IMG/VR virus record: IMGVR_UViG_3300044922_000470 | Span: 1-36,958 of that record | Source: a virus | Length of the DNA stretch: 36,958 bases | Direction: 5' to 3' (one strand) | Shown: one piece after another, positions 1 through 36,958 of the stretch | Numbering within the stretch: the first letter of the stretch is position 1 | Layout: every line of letters begins with the position of its first letter | Translations under genes and position numbers: made by a program | The notes under the pieces: generated by a model | The model's database searches: none | What the model was told of the DNA's origin: nothing | Seen by the model: only the letters and a program-made list of their open reading frames with translations

Positions 1-183
1 TGTCTTCTTAATCCCGATCTGCCCTGTGGCTCCCGCGCCCAACTCCACCACCGAGCCGCCTCGCACGAACTGCACCTCGACGGGAACCGTGTCGCGGCGG
101 GTGAAATAGAGCGTGTTGACCCGTTGCGTCAAAACGGGCGAGACAACAAATTCAGAGGAGTCGAGATTGACGTAAACGCGCAT
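1..183 (-). CDS. Tail appendage protein, paralogue copy 1 (truncated by window edge)
   Basis: Only the first 61 codons are present; the gene runs off the left edge. It starts with ATG at 181-183 and reads MRVYVNLDSSEF, nearly the same as the full-length 177-residue protein at 36003-36536, so it is a diverged second copy. The full copy looks like a beta-rich, Ig-like phage appendage protein of the kind found at the start of baseplate or fibre proteins, but I cannot name a family with certainty. It follows the epimerase-like gene in the same direction, as its paralogue does at the other end of the window. The first 24 bases match the paralogue exactly, then substitutions appear, so this is true duplication and divergence, not a simple terminal repeat. 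Confidence 0.7.
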   Translation of the reverse strand, partial: MRVYVNLDSSEFVVSPVLTQRVNTLYFTRRDTVPVEVQFVRGGSVVELGAGATGQIGIKKT

Positions 184-204
184 AGCAGCCTGTCCCTCGC
201 CCCT

Positions 205-211
205 GTGTCAA
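205..211 (-). promoter_or_regulatory. TTGACAC motif before appendage copy 1
   Basis: Minus-strand TTGACAC, ending 21 bases before the ATG at 183, in the short gap after the epimerase stop codon. It is one of a recurring set at uncoupled gene junctions; its role is unknown. Confidence 0.4.
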
Positions 212-215
212 AGTG

Positions 216-644
216 TCAGCGCGACTCCACGTCCCACCGAAACGGGAATGCAAGCGGCCCCCGGCGCTCCTCGTCAGGATTGGCGGGATCGTATTCGCGG
301 GATGGAAGGTTAAGAATCGCCGCCTCGCGGAGGCTGTGGCACGGGGTGAAGCCGTGAAACAACCCTGCTGGGATGATGAGAAGCTGCGGGGCGTCGGCGG
401 AAAGGATGACGGTTTGCCCCCGCTTGGCCTCGGCGTCCCAGATGCCGACTTTGGCCGCGCCCGCTACGCAATACCAGCGATCGACTTGCAGCCTGTGGCG
501 GTGCCACGCCTTCACCACGCCCGCCGAGCAGGTCGTGATGTAGGCTTGGCCGAAGCCGTGCGCGTCATCCGATGCGCGGAAGATTTCGGTGAGCTTGCCC
601 CGCTCATCGAGGTGGGCCGTGAGCGGTCGCAGGGTGGCTAACAT
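216..644 (-). CDS. dTDP-4-dehydrorhamnose 3,5-epimerase-like cupin, copy 1
   Basis: This is a small cupin of the RmlC (dTDP-sugar 3,5-epimerase) group. Visible marks are DERGKLTEIF near the N-terminus, KAWHRHRLQ with the two histidines expected at the active site, an aspartate-tryptophan step right after it, HGF in the second barrel half, and a C-terminal NPDE segment typical of the short RmlC-related proteins. The usual role is inversion at C3/C5 of a nucleotide-linked keto-deoxysugar; here it may supply or modify a sugar for the neighbouring glycosyltransferase (638-1678), whose stop it overlaps. ATG at 644 is preferred because AGGA lies nine bases upstream; an in-frame ATG at 653 is possible. 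A second copy enters the window from the right edge. Family is fairly sure; substrate is unknown. Confidence 0.8.
   Translation of the reverse strand: MLATLRPLTAHLDERGKLTEIFRASDDAHGFGQAYITTCSAGVVKAWHRHRLQVDRWYCVAGAAKVGIWDAEAKRGQTVILSADAPQLLIIPAGLFHGFTPCHSLREAAILNLPSREYDPANPDEERRGPLAFPFRWDVESR
484..607. repeat. 124-bp exact repeat, left member (matches 36835-36958)
   Basis: Every base from 484 to 607 matches 36835-36958, and the right member stops exactly at the last base of the window. The last mismatch is 483 versus 36834. It lies inside the epimerase-like gene and is the most conserved part of a longer diverged duplication. Confidence 0.95.
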
Positions 645-7335: not shown

Positions 7336-8213
7336 TTCTGCTGGCAATAGAGGGTCACGCTGAGAACGTCAGTAATGCGGTTGTTGGCCGTATCAACCGA
7401 GTGCGCGCTTTCCAATAGCCCGGCAACCGTGACATTGGCCGAGGTAAAGTCCTGGGCCACGATCTCGCGCAGGGTTTCCTCGACTTGCTCCACCACCTCG
7501 TCATGCGTGCTGGCGTATTCGCCGGGGCTGATGATGTGAATGGTGGCGTCGGCCTGCCAACGAGCCAACTGCGGGAAGGGTCGGCTGGCCGACAAGCAGG
7601 CGGCGACAATGCGCCGGGGCGGGGTCGTGGTTTCCGAGTAGTAGGGATACACGGTGTAATCGTCCGTGACGGCACTCGGAAGCTCGGTGCCGAGGTGGGC
7701 CGACACGATTTGCTCAATCTCATGGCGCAGGCTGTAGGTCTGCGGGGTGGCCGAGGCCGGGCCTGTGGGGGTGGTGGCGATGCGGTCGCCTGCCACGGCG
7801 CTGATGCGGATGGTGTCTGTCTGGATGTTCGGTGCGGTGTTGCCCGAAAGCTCGACCAGATGCCATCCGTATAGTGTTAAATCGGTCTGTGCCGCGTTGA
7901 TGGCGGCAAGCGCGGTGTTGGTATTGGTATCGTCCAAAATACGCGACAGCGCGGCCACACGGTTCTTGTGGGATGTCTGCCAGCCTGTTCCGTCATTGGC
8001 CGAGGTCAGAACGCTAAAATCCATGCTTACCCGGCTGGCGGATCTCACCCCGCCCTCGACAAGCTCGGAGCCTGCCGCCGACACGATAACGCACGGCAGG
8101 GCCAGCGGATCGGTCGGAACGGCATAACGAATCGGGATGCCTGCGAGCGCGGTTCCCGTGCGGGCGGCTTCGATGCGGGCGGCAAATTGGGCTTCTATTT
8201 GGCGGTGGATCAT
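7332..8213 (-). CDS. Tail terminator-like protein with two similar domains
   Basis: A 293-residue protein that appears to be two tail-completion (gpU/DUF3168-like) domains in one chain. Each half has an N-terminal helix (IEAQFAARI; IEQIVSAHL), a beta-rich core (CVIVSAAGS; RIVAACLSA), a helix with a hydrophobic repeat (RVAALSRILDD; VVEQVEETLREI) and a final strand ending similarly (DTIRISAVA; ITDVLSVTLYC). Single-domain proteins of this kind cap the tail tube and join it to the head. Position, after the connector genes and before the tube gene, agrees. ATG at 8213 overlaps the upstream stop. Domain duplication is my own alignment by eye. Confidence 0.55.
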   Translation of the reverse strand: MIHRQIEAQFAARIEAARTGTALAGIPIRYAVPTDPLALPCVIVSAAGSELVEGGVRSASRVSMDFSVLTSANDGTGWQTSHKNRVAALSRILDDTNTNTALAAINAAQTDLTLYGWHLVELSGNTAPNIQTDTIRISAVAGDRIATTPTGPASATPQTYSLRHEIEQIVSAHLGTELPSAVTDDYTVYPYYSETTTPPRRIVAACLSASRPFPQLARWQADATIHIISPGEYASTHDEVVEQVEETLREIVAQDFTSANVTVAGLLESAHSVDTANNRITDVLSVTLYCQQN

Positions 8214-9109
8214 GCGGCTTGGGCTAACTTGCCGAGGCGGTTGTTCATTTCGCGCTCGATCTGTTTCTGGCGAAACTCAAGCAACCAATTAACCCGGCCT
8301 TGGCGGATTTTGTCGCTGGCGTTTTTTGCGGTGTTCGCCATTTCGATATACATATTCAGCGGATTGCCGAAGCTCCTGCGGCCTTTTCCGCTGCCTCGCG
8401 TAAGGTTGTTGCTGACAAATTCTGGCAAATTGAGCGCGCCTGCCCCCACAAGTCCGAGGTCTTTCCATGCAGCGCCCCAGCCCGCCTTGAGCGTTCCAAC
8501 GCGCTTGGTCATTTTGGTCGTGTAGCTGTTCATTTTGCCTTTGCTAACGACAAGCTGCGACCAATGCGCTTGGTTCACTCGGCCCTGAGAATTTTGCCTG
8601 CTCTTGTGCAGATTGCGGTTCGGTTCTTGGCCCACATATTGAAGATTGCCCAACTTTGGCTCGCCCACTGCCGACACTTTCCGCGTCTGTGTGTAGCTGT
8701 TGACGCGCTTTCCTTTTTTCGTGGTATAGGGGCGCACCTCAACCAGCGTCGGGGTCTGATTGTTCAGAAGATCCAAGGCGCGGGCCTCTGAGTAATTTGG
8801 GCCACCCTGTTTCATGTATCGGTTAAACGCGGCAGACACCCCACGCACTCCGCTATCGGCCAAGATTTTGCGAATGACGGCAACAGTGACAAAAACTCGG
8901 TTGATGTCTCGTGTGACCGCGCCAACGCCCTCCGCTTGGTCTTTGGGTGGAGTAATGGCAAGCAAGCCATTGTCGCCACTATCACGCACAAGCAGTCTTG
9001 CTTGGCGGATAAGTTCTTGCCCGACTTCTTTTGTTGTCGCATTGACAAACTTCGGGACGAACTTACGCAATTCATCCAGCGTAATGTCGGCTGAGACTGC
9101 CGCCGCCAT
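8210..9109 (-). CDS. Head-tail connector or neck-region protein
   Basis: A 299-residue basic protein of unrecognised family. ATG at 9109 is taken because it follows the previous stop by two bases; a longer open frame runs into the neighbour. It starts MAAAVSADITLDELRKFVP and contains several Lys/Arg-rich stretches and a helical C-terminus (EFRQKQIEREMNN). Its place, before the tail terminator, is that of HK97 gp10-like neck proteins in other siphoviruses, but at this length it would be an extended version. Function is inferred only from order. Confidence 0.5.
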   Translation of the reverse strand: MAAAVSADITLDELRKFVPKFVNATTKEVGQELIRQARLLVRDSGDNGLLAITPPKDQAEGVGAVTRDINRVFVTVAVIRKILADSGVRGVSAAFNRYMKQGGPNYSEARALDLLNNQTPTLVEVRPYTTKKGKRVNSYTQTRKVSAVGEPKLGNLQYVGQEPNRNLHKSRQNSQGRVNQAHWSQLVVSKGKMNSYTTKMTKRVGTLKAGWGAAWKDLGLVGAGALNLPEFVSNNLTRGSGKGRRSFGNPLNMYIEMANTAKNASDKIRQGRVNWLLEFRQKQIEREMNNRLGKLAQAA

Positions 9110-9111
9110 AA

Positions 9112-9444
9112 CTATTCGGCCAAGCCGCCCGCTGTGATTTCGACCACTGCGCCGTCCTGCGAGACGGCCAACACTTGAAGCTCTTGCCCGCGAACCGTCA
9201 CACGGCTCCAAATGGCGGGAACGGCGTTGTCGATCTTGTCGAAGCGCGGCTCAAAGGCGCTGGCTTGGAGCGCCAGGCGCACGCTGCGGATCTGACGCAC
9301 CCCGCCCTCGGCCAATTCATCGCGGGTTTCAGTGTCGCCAACCACAGCCTTGTAGTCGATCCCGCCAATAGTCACACACTCGCCGCCGACATCGGTAATC
9401 GCGGCCACGCCAAGGATGTGCGCGGTATCTAACTGGCTTGCCAT
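9112..9444 (-). CDS. Head-tail joining protein candidate
   Basis: A 110-residue beta-rich protein starting MASQLDTAHILG and ending EITAGGLAE. Size, composition (small, acidic, no cysteine except one early residue) and position right after the head genes and before the neck gene are those of small joining proteins such as lambda gpFII. The strand pattern VRGQELQVLAVSQDGAVVEI near the end is typical of these OB-like adaptors. The family is not certain. Confidence 0.5.
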   Translation of the reverse strand: MASQLDTAHILGVAAITDVGGECVTIGGIDYKAVVGDTETRDELAEGGVRQIRSVRLALQASAFEPRFDKIDNAVPAIWSRVTVRGQELQVLAVSQDGAVVEITAGGLAE

Positions 9445-9447
9445 GCC

Positions 9448-11199
9448 CTAATCCTTGGAGTCAAAGGCGTCAGGGTTGCGGCGCTTGAAGACCTCGGCCC
9501 CGAATTTGTTGGCCGCGTCGGAGTTCTCCACATCGTAGATGGCATCTGTGGCAACCTTGGGATCGAAAAACGGGTGGTTATGCAGAAACACAATCTCGCT
9601 GTCCAAGACGATCCCTGCTTTGCGCGTGCGGTGGGAAAATTCCGTGTCGGAATAAATGCCGTGATAGTCGCCAGACAGGATTCCTCCACCGTTGCCAAGC
9701 CAGCCGAGGGTTGGCCGGGTGCAAACGAACGTCACCATGAGGCCGTCCGTGCGATGGCCGTCTTTCACGCCAAGCACTTTTGGGCGCTTTAGGTGCGGTT
9801 CCAACGCCTGCCAAACAAGCTCGTCCCAAAATAGCGGCGGCTCGATGTCATCTTGTGCAGTGACGATGATTTGCCCTGACGATGCTTTTACTGCCGCGTT
9901 GTAATTCGCCACGGCATTTCCACCGACTTGATCCATGAGGCCAGCGGGCGAAAGGCCGTGCTTGAATCGACCCAAAACGTCTCGCGTCTCGGCATCATCC
10001 TCGGCAAAACCAAAGATGTATTCCACGCTTTGCGGGTCTTTGGCCGCTTCCAGCCACTTCTTGCGCGTCTCGGCAGCTTGAAGCGGGCGGCCACGGGTCG
10101 GGTGGCAAACGCTTATCTTGGCCCCGCACTTCTTGAACCACTCCAATTCAAACTGATCTGCCCGCTCGGTGTCGCCATTGGCACGCAAGGTGCAAGCGTA
10201 AAGCCCGACGCCGCCGAATCCATAGACCACCGGGCGGTGCGTCCACGGGACAATCTCTGGCACAGGCAGGGCCATAAATGCGCGGGCATAGGCCAAGGCG
10301 TCTTGCGCCTCGCCGTTGTCCAGGCTGGTGGCCGCGAGTTGGGCCAAGGCTTCCCTGCGCCACGGGCTGACTTTGTATGCCTCATGCAATAGCGATTTCT
10401 TCGGCGCAAATGCCTGCGTCCGCATGGCGAGTTGCAGATATAGCTCATAGCGTTCGTCACCTGAGAGCGATTCGTGTTTCAGTGCCTCGATGGCGAGTTC
10501 CATGCCGCGCGCATCTTCTTTCATGCCGAAATGCTCAAGGCTCCCGTAGAAAATCCAGCGCGGGTCTTTGTCCCAATCGGGCTGCGAAGCGATGATGCGC
10601 CAGTTGCGGGCATTGCCGCGCTTTTCGGATGCCTCGTCTTTCTTTTCGTCGGGGGCGTGGACAATGCGGGCGTCCTCCCACCTCACTTGCCCGTCTCCCG
10701 ATTTGTCTAAGGGTTCAAGGTGTTCGTGAACAGCGCCGTCCCACTTGGCCGTCCCGCGCCGCCAGATGCGCTCACGCAAGAGGTTCAGTCCATTATTGGT
10801 CAAGCGATAGGGAACCATCGCCAGCGTGGTCGTGGGGGCCGTCTCGCGCAAATGCTGGCGGATAATGTCGCAGGACTCTTGCTCAATAATATCGTCCGTA
10901 TCGGCCCAAACCAGCCAATCGTGGCCGTCTGCCTCGGCCATGTCCGTCGCCATCTGCCGGGCGGCGGCGAAGTTGTCCACATGATCCCAAAACTGGAACG
11001 CTTCGGCGTTCTTGTATTCGCCAACCTTGCACCCCATTTCGCGGGCAATGTCCAGCGAACGATCTGGCTCCCTGCCGCCGCAGGCGCGGACAATGTAGAT
11101 GTGGGGCGTGAGCTTTTGGAAAGCCTCGATGAATCGCCCGATGTAACCCTCGCTATTTCCAGTAATAGCGACCAACGCCAAGGAAGGCAGTGTGTCCAT
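9448..11199 (-). CDS. Two-domain glycosyltransferase with TPR-like linker
   Basis: A 583-residue protein. Residues about 1-190 form a family-2 (GT-A) glycosyltransferase: starting strand LALVAITGNSEGYI, then VWADTDDI with the DxD metal motif at about residue 100, and a catalytic-region WDGAVHEH. Residues about 205-340 are helical pairs like tetratricopeptide repeats. Residues about 350-570 look like a second GT-A domain with QDDIEPP and a late FLHNHPFFD. It sits between the capsid gene plus terminator and the head-tail joining genes, an unusual place for an enzyme. The likely role is glycosylation of a capsid or tail protein, or of host surface or DNA; the acceptor is unknown. TTGACAG lies 15 bases before its ATG, which may mark separate expression. 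Confidence 0.75.
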   Translation of the reverse strand: MDTLPSLALVAITGNSEGYIGRFIEAFQKLTPHIYIVRACGGREPDRSLDIAREMGCKVGEYKNAEAFQFWDHVDNFAAARQMATDMAEADGHDWLVWADTDDIIEQESCDIIRQHLRETAPTTTLAMVPYRLTNNGLNLLRERIWRRGTAKWDGAVHEHLEPLDKSGDGQVRWEDARIVHAPDEKKDEASEKRGNARNWRIIASQPDWDKDPRWIFYGSLEHFGMKEDARGMELAIEALKHESLSGDERYELYLQLAMRTQAFAPKKSLLHEAYKVSPWRREALAQLAATSLDNGEAQDALAYARAFMALPVPEIVPWTHRPVVYGFGGVGLYACTLRANGDTERADQFELEWFKKCGAKISVCHPTRGRPLQAAETRKKWLEAAKDPQSVEYIFGFAEDDAETRDVLGRFKHGLSPAGLMDQVGGNAVANYNAAVKASSGQIIVTAQDDIEPPLFWDELVWQALEPHLKRPKVLGVKDGHRTDGLMVTFVCTRPTLGWLGNGGGILSGDYHGIYSDTEFSHRTRKAGIVLDSEIVFLHNHPFFDPKVATDAIYDVENSDAANKFGAEVFKRRNPDAFDSKD

Positions 11200-18115: not shown

Positions 18116-18742
18116 TCAAGACGCGCCCCCCTCCGCGCTTCCGCTCAAAGTTACCAGGCGCTTCTCGATGTTCCAGATAAGATCACGAATGGGCCTGACA
18201 ACCGTAAGAAGCTGAATGCAGGTGTCGCGCTCCATTGCCTCAACCGGATGCTTTTGCACCACCTGATTAAGCCACCTTCTGCCATCGTGAACCCAATGCG
18301 CCGCAAAGCCTAAAGCCTGTGAATCTTCGTCCTTGCTGAAACGCTCTGCCCACTCTTGCTGGTCTTCGTCGCCACTCATGAGACGGGCAGCGTCAGGCTG
18401 TGTTGCCATTTGCTCATAACCCGCCGCGATCATCATCGCCTTGAGTCCGGGAAGATCGGGTGTGCCGCACCCGTAAATCTTGGCGACCCTCATGTATTTC
18501 TGAGCGACCCCAAAAGTCATGCCAACCTTTTCTCTCAGGATGTGGTGAAACGATGCGCCCGTTGTGTCTCGGAGGGATTCGATCTTCTTTCCTGCCTCAA
18601 ATACAACAGAGGCAAGCTCCGATCCTTTCTCGCCTATTTCCAGCGCAAGGATTCGGGCTTTTGCGTCGAGGTCTTTGATCTCTTGGCAAAGCGTATCGAC
18701 CGCCGCCAATTCTACTTTAGTCGTTGTTAAGTCGTTGCTCAT
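18116..18742 (-). CDS. DUF3102-like phage regulatory protein
   Basis: A 208-residue helical protein. Residues about 60-100 (HHILREKVGMTFGVAQKYMRVA) resemble the core of DUF3102-type phage/plasmid proteins, a family with a conserved putative DNA-binding helix pair and unknown role. The N-terminal 50 residues are coiled-coil-like (CQEIKDLDAKARIL). It is co-directional with, and overlaps by 26 bases, the HTH gene before it, and is the last gene before the terminase promoter region, which suggests a role in the early-late switch. The leader is A/C-rich without a Shine-Dalgarno sequence. The family call is tentative. Confidence 0.55.
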   Translation of the reverse strand: MSNDLTTTKVELAAVDTLCQEIKDLDAKARILALEIGEKGSELASVVFEAGKKIESLRDTTGASFHHILREKVGMTFGVAQKYMRVAKIYGCGTPDLPGLKAMMIAAGYEQMATQPDAARLMSGDEDQQEWAERFSKDEDSQALGFAAHWVHDGRRWLNQVVQKHPVEAMERDTCIQLLTVVRPIRDLIWNIEKRLVTLSGSAEGGAS

Positions 18743-19235
18743 CTATTTGGTGTCTGTGTTTCCAGCTTTGGTTTGCTGCTTGCCGCGCGGCCTCTCTGGC
18801 CTCGTCGGACTTTTGAAAGTCATTGTGTCCTTTGATGTTGAATTTCTTCTGAATTTCAATGACGGCCTTAGAAAGTGCCGCCTTGGTTACTCCGATTCTT
18901 TTGGCAATTTCGGTGTAAGTGTTGGATAGCGTCACCGAAATATCGCCCGCCGCCATGAGGAATGCGTAGTATCGCAAAACCTTGTTGCCCCTTGGCTCCA
19001 TGATGTAGGTCAAGACGGGTATCACCATCTTGCTGGCGGCTTCGCTCACCTCCATCTGAAGGTGCTGCCTGAGTAAAATAACCAGTTCGGCGCATTGCTG
19101 GCGGTTTAAGGCCAGAGCTTCTGCCCATTCTTCTCCAATGGAGTCGCACTGAGCGGCTGGATCGGGCCAATAGCTCGTTTCTAAGTTATCGAGGGGGTTT
19201 TCGCCCATGCTGGTGAAGCGTCTAATGTCAATCAT
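18717..19235 (-). CDS. HTH DNA-binding protein
   Basis: A 172-residue protein with a helix-turn-helix at about residues 104-132 (TEIAKRIGVTKAALSKAV), similar to the HTH of phage regulators and sigma region 4. The N-terminal half (residues 1-90) is helical with RQQCAELVILLRQHL. The C-terminus is highly charged (KSDEAREAARQAANQ). It may control the downstream late promoter, as late regulators in this position often do. ATG at 19235 overlaps the stop of the small basic gene (ATGA). Confidence 0.6.
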   Translation of the reverse strand: MIDIRRFTSMGENPLDNLETSYWPDPAAQCDSIGEEWAEALALNRQQCAELVILLRQHLQMEVSEAASKMVIPVLTYIMEPRGNKVLRYYAFLMAAGDISVTLSNTYTEIAKRIGVTKAALSKAVIEIQKKFNIKGHNDFQKSDEAREAARQAANQSWKHRHQIDEQRLNND

Positions 19236-25751: not shown

Positions 25752-25955
25752 TTATTTTCTGTTGCTTGAGGAAGCGCGTTTTGACTGCCACCACGCTTCG
25801 AAACTTGGTTTGAGAATTTCCCATCCGCCGCGCTTGCCGCGTGGCATACACGCCGAAAACTCGCCGCGATGGCAAAAGCGGCGGATCATGTAGACCGAGT
25901 AGCCAGTGATGGCTGCGGCCTGCTCCGGGCGAATGATGAAATCGGTCGTGCTCAT
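25752..25955 (-). CDS. Excisionase-like HTH (HTH_17/MerR-like) protein
   Basis: A 67-residue protein, ATG at 25955 overlapping the RHH stop. RPEQAAAITGYSVYMIRRF followed by RGEFSACMPRGKRGGWEI is the winged-helix pattern of excisionase and MerR-type HTH proteins (helix pair, then a wing with GKRGGWEI). In a temperate phage a protein of this kind can be the excisionase that directs the integrase to cut the prophage out; it is only about 1 kb from the integrase. It may equally be a small transcription regulator. Confidence 0.7.
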   Translation of the reverse strand: MSTTDFIIRPEQAAAITGYSVYMIRRFCHRGEFSACMPRGKRGGWEILKPSFEAWWQSKRASSSNRK

Positions 25956-26116
25956 GCCGCTTCTCCGAGTTCTCTGGCGAGCATGGCGCGCACAAACGCC
26001 GAAAGGCTCAGACCTTTTTGAAACGCCGCCTTGCGCGCAGTGCGGATCATGTCGGGCGGAAGCGAGATGCCTGCGCTCTTCGCTCGCTTGCTTGGTGCGA
26101 TGGATTTCCGTGCCAT
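25952..26116 (-). CDS. Ribbon-helix-helix regulator A
   Basis: A 54-residue Arc/MetJ-type RHH protein. The strand-helix-helix motif KSAGISLPPDMIRTARK and LSLSAFVRAML is nearly the same as in the divergent plus-strand protein at 26225. It is made from its own promoter (-35 TTGCCA 26148-26153, -10 GCTAAT 26126-26131, 16-base spacing), which overlaps four CAAG repeats. It is the first gene of the leftward early operon, like a Cro-type regulator. ATG at 26116 fits; the longer frame is not needed. Confidence 0.75.
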   Translation of the reverse strand: MARKSIAPSKRAKSAGISLPPDMIRTARKAAFQKGLSLSAFVRAMLARELGEAA

Positions 26117-26224
26117 GCGCCAAGAATTAGCAAGACTTACCAAGCCTTGGCAAGCGCAAAAATGGGGTGTTCAGCCCATGCCCCAAAAATTGACAAGAAT
26201 TGCCATTTCGCCTACGTTGGGGGC
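26117..26224. promoter_or_regulatory. Divergent promoter/operator region between two RHH genes
   Basis: Four 10-base units beginning CAAG (26121, 26131, 26141, 26151) cover the leftward promoter (-35 26148-26153, -10 26126-26131). A further CAAGAATT at 26194-26201 lies between the rightward -35 (TTGACA 26190-26195) and the -10-like TACGTT (26213-26218, spacing 17). The rightward start site would fall at about the ATG 26225, so that transcript could be leaderless, as in lambda PRM. The helical 10-base phasing fits RHH dimers binding side by side. Confidence 0.65.
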
Positions 26225-26455
26225 ATGGCTTACCCCAAGCAAAAGCCCGACAAAGTGTCCAAGTCGGCAGGAATTTCCCTGCCGAGCGACATCATTAAGT
26301 TGTGCAAGCGCGAGGCGGCGAAACAGGGCAAGACCATGAGCGCCGTGGCCCGCGAGCTATTCAAGGCATGGTTAGAGCAGTCGGGCGATAGCCTTGAGAG
26401 TGCGGCCAAGGCAAAGCTGTCCAAGGCCAATGCTTCCGTAAAGAAGCGCCGATAA
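26225..26455 (+). CDS. Ribbon-helix-helix regulator B (repressor candidate)
   Basis: A 76-residue RHH protein on the plus strand, divergent from the early operon. Its core KSAGISLPSDIIKLCKRE is plainly related to regulator A (KSAGISLPPDMI). The C-terminal part (ESAAKAKLSKANASVKKRR) is basic. A separately expressed, divergent, possibly leaderless regulator in this place is the natural lysogeny repressor; A would be its antagonist. No CI-type repressor with a cleavage domain exists in the window. A terminator-like hairpin follows (26496-26530). Confidence 0.75.
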   Translation: MAYPKQKPDKVSKSAGISLPSDIIKLCKREAAKQGKTMSAVARELFKAWLEQSGDSLESAAKAKLSKANASVKKRR

Positions 26456-26495: not shown

Positions 26496-26530
26496 GGGCA
26501 TGAGACATCCGCTGTCCCACGCCCTATTTT
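26496..26530 (+). terminator. Possible terminator of RHH regulator B
   Basis: GGGC at 26496-26499 pairs with GCCC at 26521-26524, with an inner stem GACA/TGTC and two mismatches, followed by TATTTT. It stands 40 bases after the RHH stop and ends at the convergent RHH gene. Imperfect, so only fairly likely. Confidence 0.45.
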
Positions 26531-26691
26531 GGAGGTTTCCGTTTACTGCAATCAGTGTTCGGCGTATGAGCAAGTGTGACACCTTGGTGCTTTTTTAATA
26601 GCCTGTCGATATATTCCGAGCGCGAAAGATTGCCCCGCGCCTCGTCAATTAGCCGGGTGGTTTCCTCGTCAAGCTGGATCGTCTTTTTCAT
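26524..26691 (-). CDS. Ribbon-helix-helix regulator C
   Basis: A 55-residue protein from ATG at 26691, with KKTIQLDEETTRLIDEARGN and SRSEYIDRLLKKH forming an RHH fold. A longer open frame exists but the shorter start matches the family. It overlaps the end of regulator D by 23 bases and its product ends TDCSKRKPPK. It may act as an antitoxin-like regulator or with D as a heteropartner; no toxin gene is next to it. Confidence 0.65.
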   Translation of the reverse strand: MKKTIQLDEETTRLIDEARGNLSRSEYIDRLLKKHQGVTLAHTPNTDCSKRKPPK

Positions 26692-26857
26692 TGGTTTTGC
26701 GCCCTTCTCTTTTTCGCTCTGCCGCAATAAGTGACCTAACGAAAGTCGAAAAATCATCGAGGCCACGCCTGCGCGCCTCTGCCATCGCCCAAGCATATAG
26801 CTCGCGGCCCACCGTGATCGTGGTGCGCTTCACATTGGCCGCTCTTTGGTTAGGCAT
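26669..26857 (-). CDS. Ribbon-helix-helix regulator D
   Basis: A 62-residue protein starting MPNQRAANVKRTTITVG. The pattern KRTTITVGRELYAWAMAEAR and FSTFVRSLIAAE is the RHH strand and helices. Two direct copies of TTGGCACACA (26861-26880) lie just before the start, an operator-like pair on the same 10-base pitch as those of regulators A and B. It sits right after the integrase gene, so it may respond to or control integration functions. Confidence 0.65.
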   Translation of the reverse strand: MPNQRAANVKRTTITVGRELYAWAMAEARRRGLDDFSTFVRSLIAAERKREGRKTNEKDDPA

Positions 26858-26890: not shown

Positions 26891-27901
26891 TCACAACGCC
26901 CACCACGCTTTCGAATCAGCCAAAGCAGCAGGCACGGCATAGACCTTTTGCACCATTGCCGCCGAGGTGTGCCCCATCTGGTAGGCCGTCAGTCCCGCAT
27001 TTTTAGCCCTTGCAAGGTGGTAAGTGGCAAACGAGTGCCGCAGCGCATTATCAGGCCACTCGGCCAAGACGGGCGCACAGGCACGGCGTCGGTGCGTGTG
27101 GAGGGTTTCGGATGCCACACCGATAATCTTGCCCGATTGCTTGGCAAGCCACGCCCTGCGCCGTCGTAGCGGCTCGGTGAAGTCCACGATGCGTTGGTCA
27201 TATCCGCCCGAATCCTTCATCGCGCCGGGCGGGACGTGGATCTGGCCCGATTTAGTATTTACGCGGCTCCAGTCCATCCGCTCCACCTCCTCAGTCCGAA
27301 GCCCCGCAAAGCCCCCAAGGAGCAACAGCGCCCGCACATGGTCGGGAAGCTCCAAGGCCAGCAGCGCCTTCATCTGGTCGGGGGTCAGGATATTGCGCCC
27401 CGGCTTGGTCTTAGGCGCGGGAACCGCCGTGATCGGGTCGTGCGGAATCAGTCGGTTCGCCGCGAGGTATCCGAAGAACATCCGCGCATAGCGGTAATAC
27501 ATGGCCTGAGTGTTGCCATTGGCGCTGCGGGCCTTGATCCATTTCCGTAGGGCCACAGCCTCGATGTCTCCCACCGCCCCGCGAAACGCCTTGCCAAACG
27601 CCCGTTCAAAGATGCCAAGTTTTTCCTCGTGGCTGCTGCTTTGCGGATCGGCCTCGTTTACGAACATCCGCAGCGCCGCCTTGACCGTCAGCCCGTCAGG
27701 ATTGTGCAGCGATTGCATCCCCTTCTCGGTCACGCGGGCCGTCAGCTTGGCCCCCTCGGCCCAGGCTAATTCCTCCGCAGCAAAGAACTTTCGCACCCTC
27801 TTACCGTGGGCAAAGAAGTCGCAAACCCAAGGGGTTGTTTTGTTCCATTCCGCCCGGCGCACTCGGAATCTTACGGGGTTATTGTTGCTCCTCATTGCCA
27901 T
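26891..27901 (-). CDS. Tyrosine integrase
   Basis: A site-specific tyrosine recombinase of about 336 residues. The catalytic domain has LGGFAGLRTEEVERMDW (first arginine), NALRHSFATYHL (second arginine, with Asn where many enzymes have His), QMGHTSAAM (histidine) and the nucleophile tyrosine in VYAVP. The N-terminal part is a SAM-like core-binding domain (SLHNPDGLTVKAALRM). It sits next to the tRNA-Ser-derived attP, as expected. The start is uncertain: ATG at 27901, 27895 or 27934 are possible; a longer frame runs through the tRNA sequence and is not real. It would integrate and, with an excisionase, release the prophage. Confidence 0.9.
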   Translation of the reverse strand: MAMRSNNNPVRFRVRRAEWNKTTPWVCDFFAHGKRVRKFFAAEELAWAEGAKLTARVTEKGMQSLHNPDGLTVKAALRMFVNEADPQSSSHEEKLGIFERAFGKAFRGAVGDIEAVALRKWIKARSANGNTQAMYYRYARMFFGYLAANRLIPHDPITAVPAPKTKPGRNILTPDQMKALLALELPDHVRALLLLGGFAGLRTEEVERMDWSRVNTKSGQIHVPPGAMKDSGGYDQRIVDFTEPLRRRRAWLAKQSGKIIGVASETLHTHRRRACAPVLAEWPDNALRHSFATYHLARAKNAGLTAYQMGHTSAAMVQKVYAVPAALADSKAWWAL

Positions 27902-27939
27902 AATTGCCAAAACCCTACGCTTGATTGCCAACATTGCCA
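27894..27939. repeat. ATTGCCA repeats at the integrase start, possible arm-type sites
   Basis: ATTGCCA occurs at 27894, 27903, 27924 and 27933 (two pairs, each with nine-base spacing); a fifth copy is at 28122 beyond the attP core. Repeats flanking a core site on both sides are what arm-type integrase binding sites look like. They overlap the beginning of the integrase gene, so they could also serve autoregulation. Confidence 0.6.
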
Positions 27940-28014
27940 AACGAAAAGCCGCGACAAGCAAAGACACTGGAGCGGCGTAAGTGTCTGAACTTGTGCGGCT
28001 TTTACAGAGAAAAG

Positions 28015-28072
28015 TGGCGGAAGGGGTGGGATTCGAACCCACGGTTGGTTTAACCCAACGCTCGATTTCGAG
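28015..28072 (-). other. attP core: 3' half of a tRNA-Ser gene
   Basis: Read on the minus strand, 28072-28015 gives an anticodon loop CTCGAAA, the long variable arm (GTTGG/CCAAC), a T arm GTGGG-TTCGAAT-CCCAC, the 3' acceptor strand CCCTTCC, a discriminator G and CCA. The variable arm and G discriminator fit tRNA-Ser, with CGA as the likely anticodon. The 5' half does not follow, so this is not a complete tRNA gene but the part that would restore a host tRNA after integration. With the integrase beside it and no host DNA visible, it is attP rather than a prophage border. Confidence 0.8.
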
Positions 28073-36002: not shown

Positions 36003-36536
36003 TTAGTTGGGCACGGTTGTCAGAATCCCGTCGTTATCCACCGACACACGGTAAATCGTGCCACCGGGGGCTTGCAGAAGCGCAAAGGCAGCGGCAACCG
36101 TAGTCGGAACGCCTTCGCCGCCACGGATGACATCGTTGTAGATGACCGCCTCGGTGGGTAGGGTGGTGGTGATAGTGCTTCCAACCGCCCAAGTGACTTC
36201 GATTTTGGCAGAGATGCTGCTCGTGTCGTTGTCTGGGCTGAACTCCGCGTCCATGTTGGACGTGTTGAGGTTAAGATCGAAGGTGTAAACGCTGTCCGCG
36301 CCCGTTCCCGTCTTTGTCCATGCCGTATCCGAAGCGAGGAAGTTGCCTGTGAATGTCTTCTTAATCCCGATCTGCCCCGTGGCTCCCGCGCCCAACTCCA
36401 CCACCGAGCCGCCTCGCACGAACTGCACCTCGACAGGCACCGTGTCCCGCCGTGTGAAAAACAAAGTCGTGACCCGCTGCGTCAGGACGGGGGAAACGAC
36501 AAATTCGGATGAGTCGAGATTGATGTAGACGCGCAT
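36003..36536 (-). CDS. Tail appendage protein, paralogue copy 2
   Basis: A 177-residue protein, the full-length version of the copy at the left edge. It starts MRVYINLDSSEFVVSPVLTQ, has a strand-rich body (TVPVEVQFVRGGSVVEL, DSVYTFDLNLNT) and a helical end (TTVAAAFALLQ). It looks like an Ig-type appendage attachment domain followed by a second strand set. The epimerase-like copy 2 lies before it and the secreted fibre-like gene after it. It ends seven bases before that gene. Confidence 0.7.
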   Translation of the reverse strand: MRVYINLDSSEFVVSPVLTQRVTTLFFTRRDTVPVEVQFVRGGSVVELGAGATGQIGIKKTFTGNFLASDTAWTKTGTGADSVYTFDLNLNTSNMDAEFSPDNDTSSISAKIEVTWAVGSTITTTLPTEAVIYNDVIRGGEGVPTTVAAAFALLQAPGGTIYRVSVDNDGILTTVPN

Positions 36537-36555
36537 GGCCCTGCCCTCGCCCCCT

Positions 36556-36562
36556 GTGTCAA
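36556..36562 (-). promoter_or_regulatory. TTGACAC motif before appendage copy 2
   Basis: Minus-strand TTGACAC, 19 bases before ATG 36536, matching the motif at 205-211 of the other copy. Confidence 0.4.
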
Positions 36563-36566
36563 AGTG

Positions 36567-36958
36567 TCAGCGCGACTCCACGGCCCACTTGAACGGGAAG
36601 GCTAACGGCCCTCTGCGCTCCTCGTCGGGATTGGCGGCATCGTATTCACGGCTCGGTAAGTTCAGAATCGCCGCCTCGCGGTGGCCGTGGCAGGGCGTGA
36701 AACCGTGAAACAAACCTGCCGGGATGATGAGAAGCTGCTGCGTGTCGGCAGAAAGAATGATGGTCTGTCCGCGCATGGCCTTTGCGTCCCAAATGCCGAC
36801 CTTTGCCGCGCCTGCTACGCAAAACCACCGATCCACTTGCAGCCTGTGGCGGTGCCACGCCTTCACCACGCCCGCCGAGCAGGTCGTGATGTAGGCTTGG
36901 CCGAAGCCGTGCGCGTCATCCGATGCGCGGAAGATTTCGGTGAGCTTGCCCCGCTCAT
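36567..36958 (-). CDS. dTDP-4-dehydrorhamnose 3,5-epimerase-like cupin, copy 2 (truncated by window edge)
   Basis: The right edge cuts this gene about 13 codons after its start; the remaining 130 codons are open. It is close to the copy at 216-644 (KAWHRHRLQVDRWF, NPDEERRGPLA) with scattered changes, mostly conservative, in its C-terminal part, while its first 124 available bases are identical to the other copy. The motifs are those of the RmlC-like family. The two copies are probably working paralogues created by duplication of an epimerase-appendage pair. Confidence 0.8.
   Translation of the reverse strand, partial: ERGKLTEIFRASDDAHGFGQAYITTCSAGVVKAWHRHRLQVDRWFCVAGAAKVGIWDAKAMRGQTIILSADTQQLLIIPAGLFHGFTPCHGHREAAILNLPSREYDAANPDEERRGPLAFPFKWAVESR
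36835..36958. repeat. 124-bp exact repeat, right member (matches 484-607)
   Basis: Identical to 484-607 over its full length and ends at the last base of the window, as expected when an assembly stops inside a repeat. Confidence 0.95.

Follow-up and report, generated by a model that had tools for sequence, protein, structure and literature searches.

Two paralogous ribbon-helix-helix proteins as a probable lysis-lysogeny switch in temperate phages of Verrucomicrobiota

The virus analysed here, an IMG/VR record considered over its whole stretch of 36,958 bases (hereafter, the window), is a temperate phage of Verrucomicrobiota in which the choice between lysis and lysogeny is probably made by RHHm and RHHp, two paralogous proteins of the Arc-like ribbon-helix-helix (RHH) type that would take the place of CI and Cro. 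Judging from the sequence, regulation by this pair through a shared set of operators is very likely. The paralogy of the two proteins, the phased boxes shared by their promoters, their conservation and operon positions, the integrase, the tRNA attP and the absence of an S24 repressor can be read from the DNA, and from these features we infer binding, repression, immunity and the role of each protein. The layout is that of a temperate phage whose early operon starts from a pair of divergent regulators with shared boxes; the retention of the pair in about 37 viral contigs, together with its likeness to a pair found in an integrated prophage, suggests that it probably switches the phage between lysis and dormancy.

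The RHH gene pair and its phage context

The genes concerned and the attachment site are the following:

25752-25955, minus strand: HTH_17 excisionase-like gene, whose start overlaps the RHHm stop (ATGA)
25952-26116, minus strand: RHHm, 54 aa, MARKSIAPSKRAKSAGISLPPDMIRTARKAAFQKGLSLSAFVRAMLARELGEAA; first gene of the leftward early operon, a Cro-like position
26225-26455, plus strand: RHHp, 76 aa, MAYPKQKPDKVSKSAGISLPSDIIKLCKREAAKQGKTMSAVARELFKAWLEQSGDSLESAAKAKLSKANASVKKRR; lysine/arginine-rich C-terminal tail, a CI/C-like position
26891-28042, minus strand: tyrosine integrase, whose true start is probably internal to the ORF
28015-28072, minus strand: attP, 58 nt identical to the 3′ half of a Verrucomicrobiota tRNA-Ser(CGA)

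RHHm and RHHp are divergently encoded and separated by a gap of 108 bp (26117-26224). The earlier note had proposed, from a short shared motif, that they are paralogues; the similarity extends well beyond that motif, since a direct search with RHHp matches the RHHm gene at E 2.2e-7 and profile-profile comparison gives E = 4.6e-20 over 54 columns, the latter value identifying the two proteins as paralogues. As for the fold, the scores of single proteins against the RHH_1 family of Pfam are weak, both below the curated cut-off of 20.5 bits (RHHp, 18.4 bits, E 0.0021; RHHm, 14.6 bits, E 0.032). RHHp matches PHROG 2639, “Arc-like repressor” (E 7.3e-4), and the RHHm profile matches Arc (1b28, E 0.006); another RHH protein was also matched by profile. 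In Foldseek comparisons Arc is on top for RHHm with probability 1.00, but with an E value of 0.2, while the fold matches of RHHp are led by RHH proteins other than Arc, and none of the matches of either protein reaches E < 0.001. In the monomer models the strand segment is left extended and is followed by two helices, at residues 21-33 and 38-53 in RHHm and 21-34 and 38-75 in RHHp. Thus, profile and fold evidence, on which the assignment rests, agree on a ribbon-helix-helix fold for both proteins.

Arc contacts DNA through Q9, N11 and R13. In the Arc register, the predicted DNA-reading positions are S14, G16 and S18 in RHHm and RHHp alike, and this identity predicts that both proteins recognize the same box. 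Both also look to be under purifying selection, with pN/pS values of 0.12-0.21 in comparison with two close relatives. In a tree of the two families the RHHm and RHHp labels cluster strongly, with 2 changes versus 21 when shuffled; the tree, built on few columns and with long branches, is weakly resolved and is consistent with an old duplication, possibly with a single origin.

The leftward block headed by RHHm continues with the HTH_17 gene (HTH_17, E 1e-6; PHROG 66, “excisionase and transcriptional regulator”, E 7e-4), small early genes, an exonuclease VIII-like gene and a methylase, up to the terminase and the structural genes. The integrase and the tRNA attP are marks of an integrating, temperate phage. 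The tRNA-Ser attP sequence is present in two other phages as well, whereas members of the L027-L034 clade (L labels denote contigs and chromosomal loci) carry the 3′ part of a tRNA-Leu beside the integrase instead. The hosts belong to Verrucomicrobiota, and Chthoniobacterales feature prominently in the matches to the attP pattern. The terminase is nearest to that of an Akkermansia phage, with 32% identity, and no close relative of RHHm was found among named phages.

Two further RHH-like genes (26524-26691 and 26669-26857, minus strand; RHH3/RHH4), which overlap each other, lie in the interval that separates RHHp from the integrase, in the orientation of the latter, so that the window contains four RHH-like genes within 1 kb; these two occur only in the closest relatives, L003 and L004. 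The ends of the window (1-607 and 36354-36958) align in direct orientation with 88% identity across 608 columns, and represent either a duplicated gene or the overlapping termini of a circular genome whose assembly combined two variants.

The absence of a CI-type protein, already remarked in the earlier note, held in a wider survey: S24 peptidase was found in 0 of 25 phage records and HTH_3 nowhere in the window, and neither domain occurs inside the integrated prophage described below. HTH_3 gave weak matches in 9 of the 25 records, one of them above the cut-off, and the two whose position was checked are far from the pair. No S24, HTH_3, antirepressor or ParA family is listed for the 41 window proteins.

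Candidate operators and promoters in the shared gap

The features of the gap are listed below:

26121-26124, plus strand: half box, the fourth in-phase CAAG, at the left end of the array
26127-26133, plus strand: left box 1, TTAGCAA, 11 nt from the RHHm start, a position kept in relatives
26137-26143, plus strand: left box 2, TTACCAA
26147-26153, plus strand: left box 3, TTGGCAA
26124-26153, minus strand: candidate RHHm promoter, TTGCCA-18-TAATTC, under the left boxes, with a weak -10, proposed from the sequence
26190-26196, plus strand: right box 1, TTGACAA, overlapping the -35 of the RHHp promoter; AAAATTGACAAGAATTG is nearly invariant across clades
26200-26206, plus strand: right box 2, TTGCCAT, degenerate, 10 bp from right box 1
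26190-26218, plus strand: RHHp promoter, TTGACA-17-TACGTT (-35 at 26190-26195, -10 at 26213-26218), ending 6 nt before the ATG

The gap had been described as containing CAAG units on a 10-base pitch over the left promoter, and CAAGAATT again in the right one, 73 bases apart; these positions were recovered, with CAAG at 26121, 26131, 26141, 26151 and 26194 and CAAGAATT at 26121 and 26194, spaced by 73 bp. When all 36,958 bases were scanned for in-phase runs of 4-mers at pitches of 7-22, the four CAAG units at pitch 10 were the sole 4-mer repeated four times in phase, and dinucleotide shuffling of the gap, repeated 5000 times, gave such a four-fold run, of any 4-mer, in only 2 cases. CAAG appears to be half of a near-palindromic box, TTRNCAA(G). 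The tandem arrangement TTRNCAA-N3-TTRNCAA, with at most one mismatch, has five matches in the window, every one inside the gap, although some of these are one place counted on both strands; 0.45 matches are expected, and five were reached in 0 of 100 shuffles.

The boxes extend to relatives. TTGNCAA occurs at 30 sites, in 20 of the 22 dereplicated intergenic regions (phage clades plus three chromosomal loci), against an average of 2.7 and at most 7 in shuffles, and it stands out among the 64 palindromes of its form in these gaps; as the relatives are not independent, the conservation counts are inflated by shared ancestry. Within the window clade, boxes are constant at gap positions 11, 21, 31, 74 and 84, and among close relatives they vary less than the remaining gap sequence. 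The degenerate right box 2 is a full TTGCCAA in L027 and L028, and the L027-L034 clade has the variants TTGTTAA and TTGTAAA with the phase unchanged. A phase of 10 bp would fit RHH dimers bound to tandem major-groove sites; a covariation between box sequence and strand residues from clade to clade is suggestive only.

The spacing of the RHHp promoter is kept in relatives, some of which have a GTG start, and in L021-L024 a TTGACA-18-TAnnCC lies at the place matching the candidate RHHm promoter. A strict scan for the sigma-70 consensus listed no promoter at the RHHp site. The suggestion that the right transcript may start at its ATG, as in lambda PRM, fits the distance from the -10 to the start in several clades, but the leader is longer in L027-L034. 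The promoter sequence is consistent with an RHHp message that is leaderless or nearly so.

Between the two promoters, a GGGG...CCCC dyad followed by a T-run (26156-26192, minus strand) is kept in most phage relatives. As a terminator it fared poorly, since the hairpin of the window is no better than shuffles (z -0.05) and a strict scan puts the sole terminator elsewhere; it is possibly an insulating terminator or an extra operator.

In the proposed switch, RHH dimers would bind in tandem on TTGNCAA boxes 10 bp apart, three of which would cover the early-operon promoter, while the other two would lie over the -35 and the spacer of the RHHp promoter. RHHp would be the maintenance repressor and, bound to the left array, would block RHHm, the excisionase-like gene, and the replication and later genes; when abundant, it would limit its own promoter through the right boxes. 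RHHm, produced first among the early proteins, would occupy these boxes as well and so silence RHHp, much as Cro acts.

Comparison with known phage switches

In lambda (CI/Cro) and P2 (C/Cox), divergent promoters share operators and the lytic-side regulator heads the early operon; in P2, moreover, the repressor and integrase genes are adjacent. The layout of the window is alike, although the protein folds are unrelated, and in some relatives the repressor-side gene, RHHp, adjoins the integrase as in P2. The arc and mnt genes of P22 are divergent homologues, so that immI of P22, like the window, has two homologous RHH proteins divergently encoded in one phage region. The P22 repressors Arc and Mnt act on ant, the antirepressor gene, in the ant moron, beside a separate prophage repressor (PMC2629481). 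In the window, instead, the pair stands at the start of the early operon and beside the integrase, an excisionase-like gene follows and no antirepressor was found; also unlike P22, no S24 repressor was found and the box type is identical at both promoters. Another precedent is F55 of SSV1, an RHH repressor that maintains lysogeny by means of tandem repeats at early promoters and at its own (PMC5569661); there, however, the regulator is a single RHH protein, the host and promoters are archaeal, the repeat is ATAGATAGAGT, and a divergent RHH paralogue is not described.

The P22 precedent also supports a different reading, namely that the pair is a secondary module similar to immI, which controls its own expression and that of a few early genes, immunity being due to another, unrecognised repressor. 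Candidates for such a DNA-binding protein are the product of 18717-19235, with a weak HTH match, and those of 26524-26691 and 26669-26857. This reading is unlikely: the window has neither S24 nor HTH_3 and, among its 41 proteins, no antirepressor family; the HTH candidate is deep in the early operon, away from the divergent promoter, and RHH3/RHH4 are confined to the closest relatives of the window.

The earlier note had also presented the double-RHH switch as possibly a novel immunity system. This was overstated, as P22 arc/mnt and F55 precede it; what stands is a pair of divergent RHH paralogues with shared boxes at both promoters, placed where a phage immunity region would be and conserved across phages. 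To that note the analysis adds the full palindromic unit TTGNCAA, right box 2, the tRNA attP, the vicinity of RHHp and integrase in relatives, and the two small RHH-like genes near the integrase. A search of open-licence papers yielded no bacterial phage with an RHH pair as its main immunity. We advance only tentatively, as a proposal with somewhat less than an even chance, that a family of tailed temperate Verrucomicrobiota phages uses co-evolving RHH paralogues acting through a common set of TTGNCAA boxes as its sole immunity and lysis-lysogeny switch, without a CI-type protein and hence without induction by RecA-triggered S24 self-cleavage.

If the main switch is indeed built in this way, a lambda-like bistable logic would have been built twice, in this case with the smallest DNA-binding fold, and the repressor and anti-repressor sides would share one ancestral gene, in the phages of a phylum that has been little studied. 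The pair would provide a marker for temperate phages without CI-type genes and would explain failed repressor searches, and it would raise the question of how a prophage is induced with no S24 domain to cleave. With a control region of 108 bp and two proteins of fewer than 80 residues, the proposal is easily tested.

The pair in viral relatives and bacterial chromosomes

Four scans of the IMG/VR viral contigs gave a set of 39 contigs bearing RHHm, and in 37 of them RHHp is adjacent and divergent. The two exceptions are L045 and L059. L045 has RHHm with neither RHHp nor a Pfam integrase in 39 kb (a single case), whereas in L059 (1-1700) the cassette made up of RHHp and the integrase has the opposite orientation with respect to att and RHHm, each gene keeping its boxes. 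This arrangement, seen in one contig, may reflect an invertible segment, a rearrangement or an assembly error; provided that the assembly is right, the separation of the promoters implies that the pair can do there without a compact shared operator.

The position of the integrase relative to the pair differs among clades. RHHp is directly upstream of it and co-directional in the L009-L014 and L027-L034 groups, whereas in the window clade RHHp and the integrase are oriented towards each other and the two small RHH-like genes lie between them; the pair is retained while the integrase type changes. These arrangements bear on the possibility that the two proteins form an integration/excision circuit, balancing the integrase against the excisionase-like gene instead of controlling the lytic genes. 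The overlap of RHHm with the HTH_17 gene and the co-directional RHHp-integrase neighbourhood in several clades speak for such a role, yet the RHHm promoter appears to drive the entire early block too, the integrase of the window clade converges on RHHp, and the pair outlasts the exchange of integrase type, all of which make this circuit quite improbable as the main function.

The likeness to pairs in bacterial genomes brings us back to the lysis-lysogeny switch. A first genome scan with the RHHm alignment gave no match; among 213 genomes of the order Chthoniobacterales, divergent pairs were found in G134, G124 and G158. The last contains a distant 44.3-kb prophage bounded by a 21-bp direct repeat (attL/attR) at 243631 and 287962, the latter copy lying at the start of a tRNA-Gln gene. 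The prophage has its integrase at 244293 and a terminase-like protein at 276 kb; the pair is located at 246.2-246.7 kb, and its gap is full of TTGNCAA-like boxes. The interior of this prophage has no S24 and no HTH_3; the single S24 match of the genome is on another contig, and its HTH_3 matches are outside the prophage. ParB-like genes are located near the pair, and the roles of the two RHH proteins could differ here from those in the window.

These ParB-like genes, the weak matches of the pair to antitoxin RHH families and the many RHH proteins that act as antitoxins or in partition would suit a toxin-antitoxin or plasmid partition system, with antitoxins or ParG/omega-like centromere binders on an iteron array, but this explanation is very improbable, since no toxin gene adjoins RHHm or RHHp, no ParA family is present among the 41 window proteins, and the integrase with its tRNA attP favours chromosomal integration.

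The other two chromosomal pairs also have TTGNCAA-like boxes; they are located beside terC in G134 (L128, around 7590-8007) and beside lgt in G124 (L129, around 9045-9460), with no evident phage genes near either. They may be either domesticated remnants or cases in which the module is used independently and, having no evident phage neighbours, they indicate that the module is not tied solely to lysogeny.

A last observation concerns the sequence downstream of RHHp: the window has an altered GGCGTAGGACATCCGC without the C or G homopolymer of variable length (about 8-17) that, in most relatives (e.g., L018, L024, L028 and L035), is found ~70 nt past the RHHp stop and is often preceded by GGCGTAGGACATCCGC.
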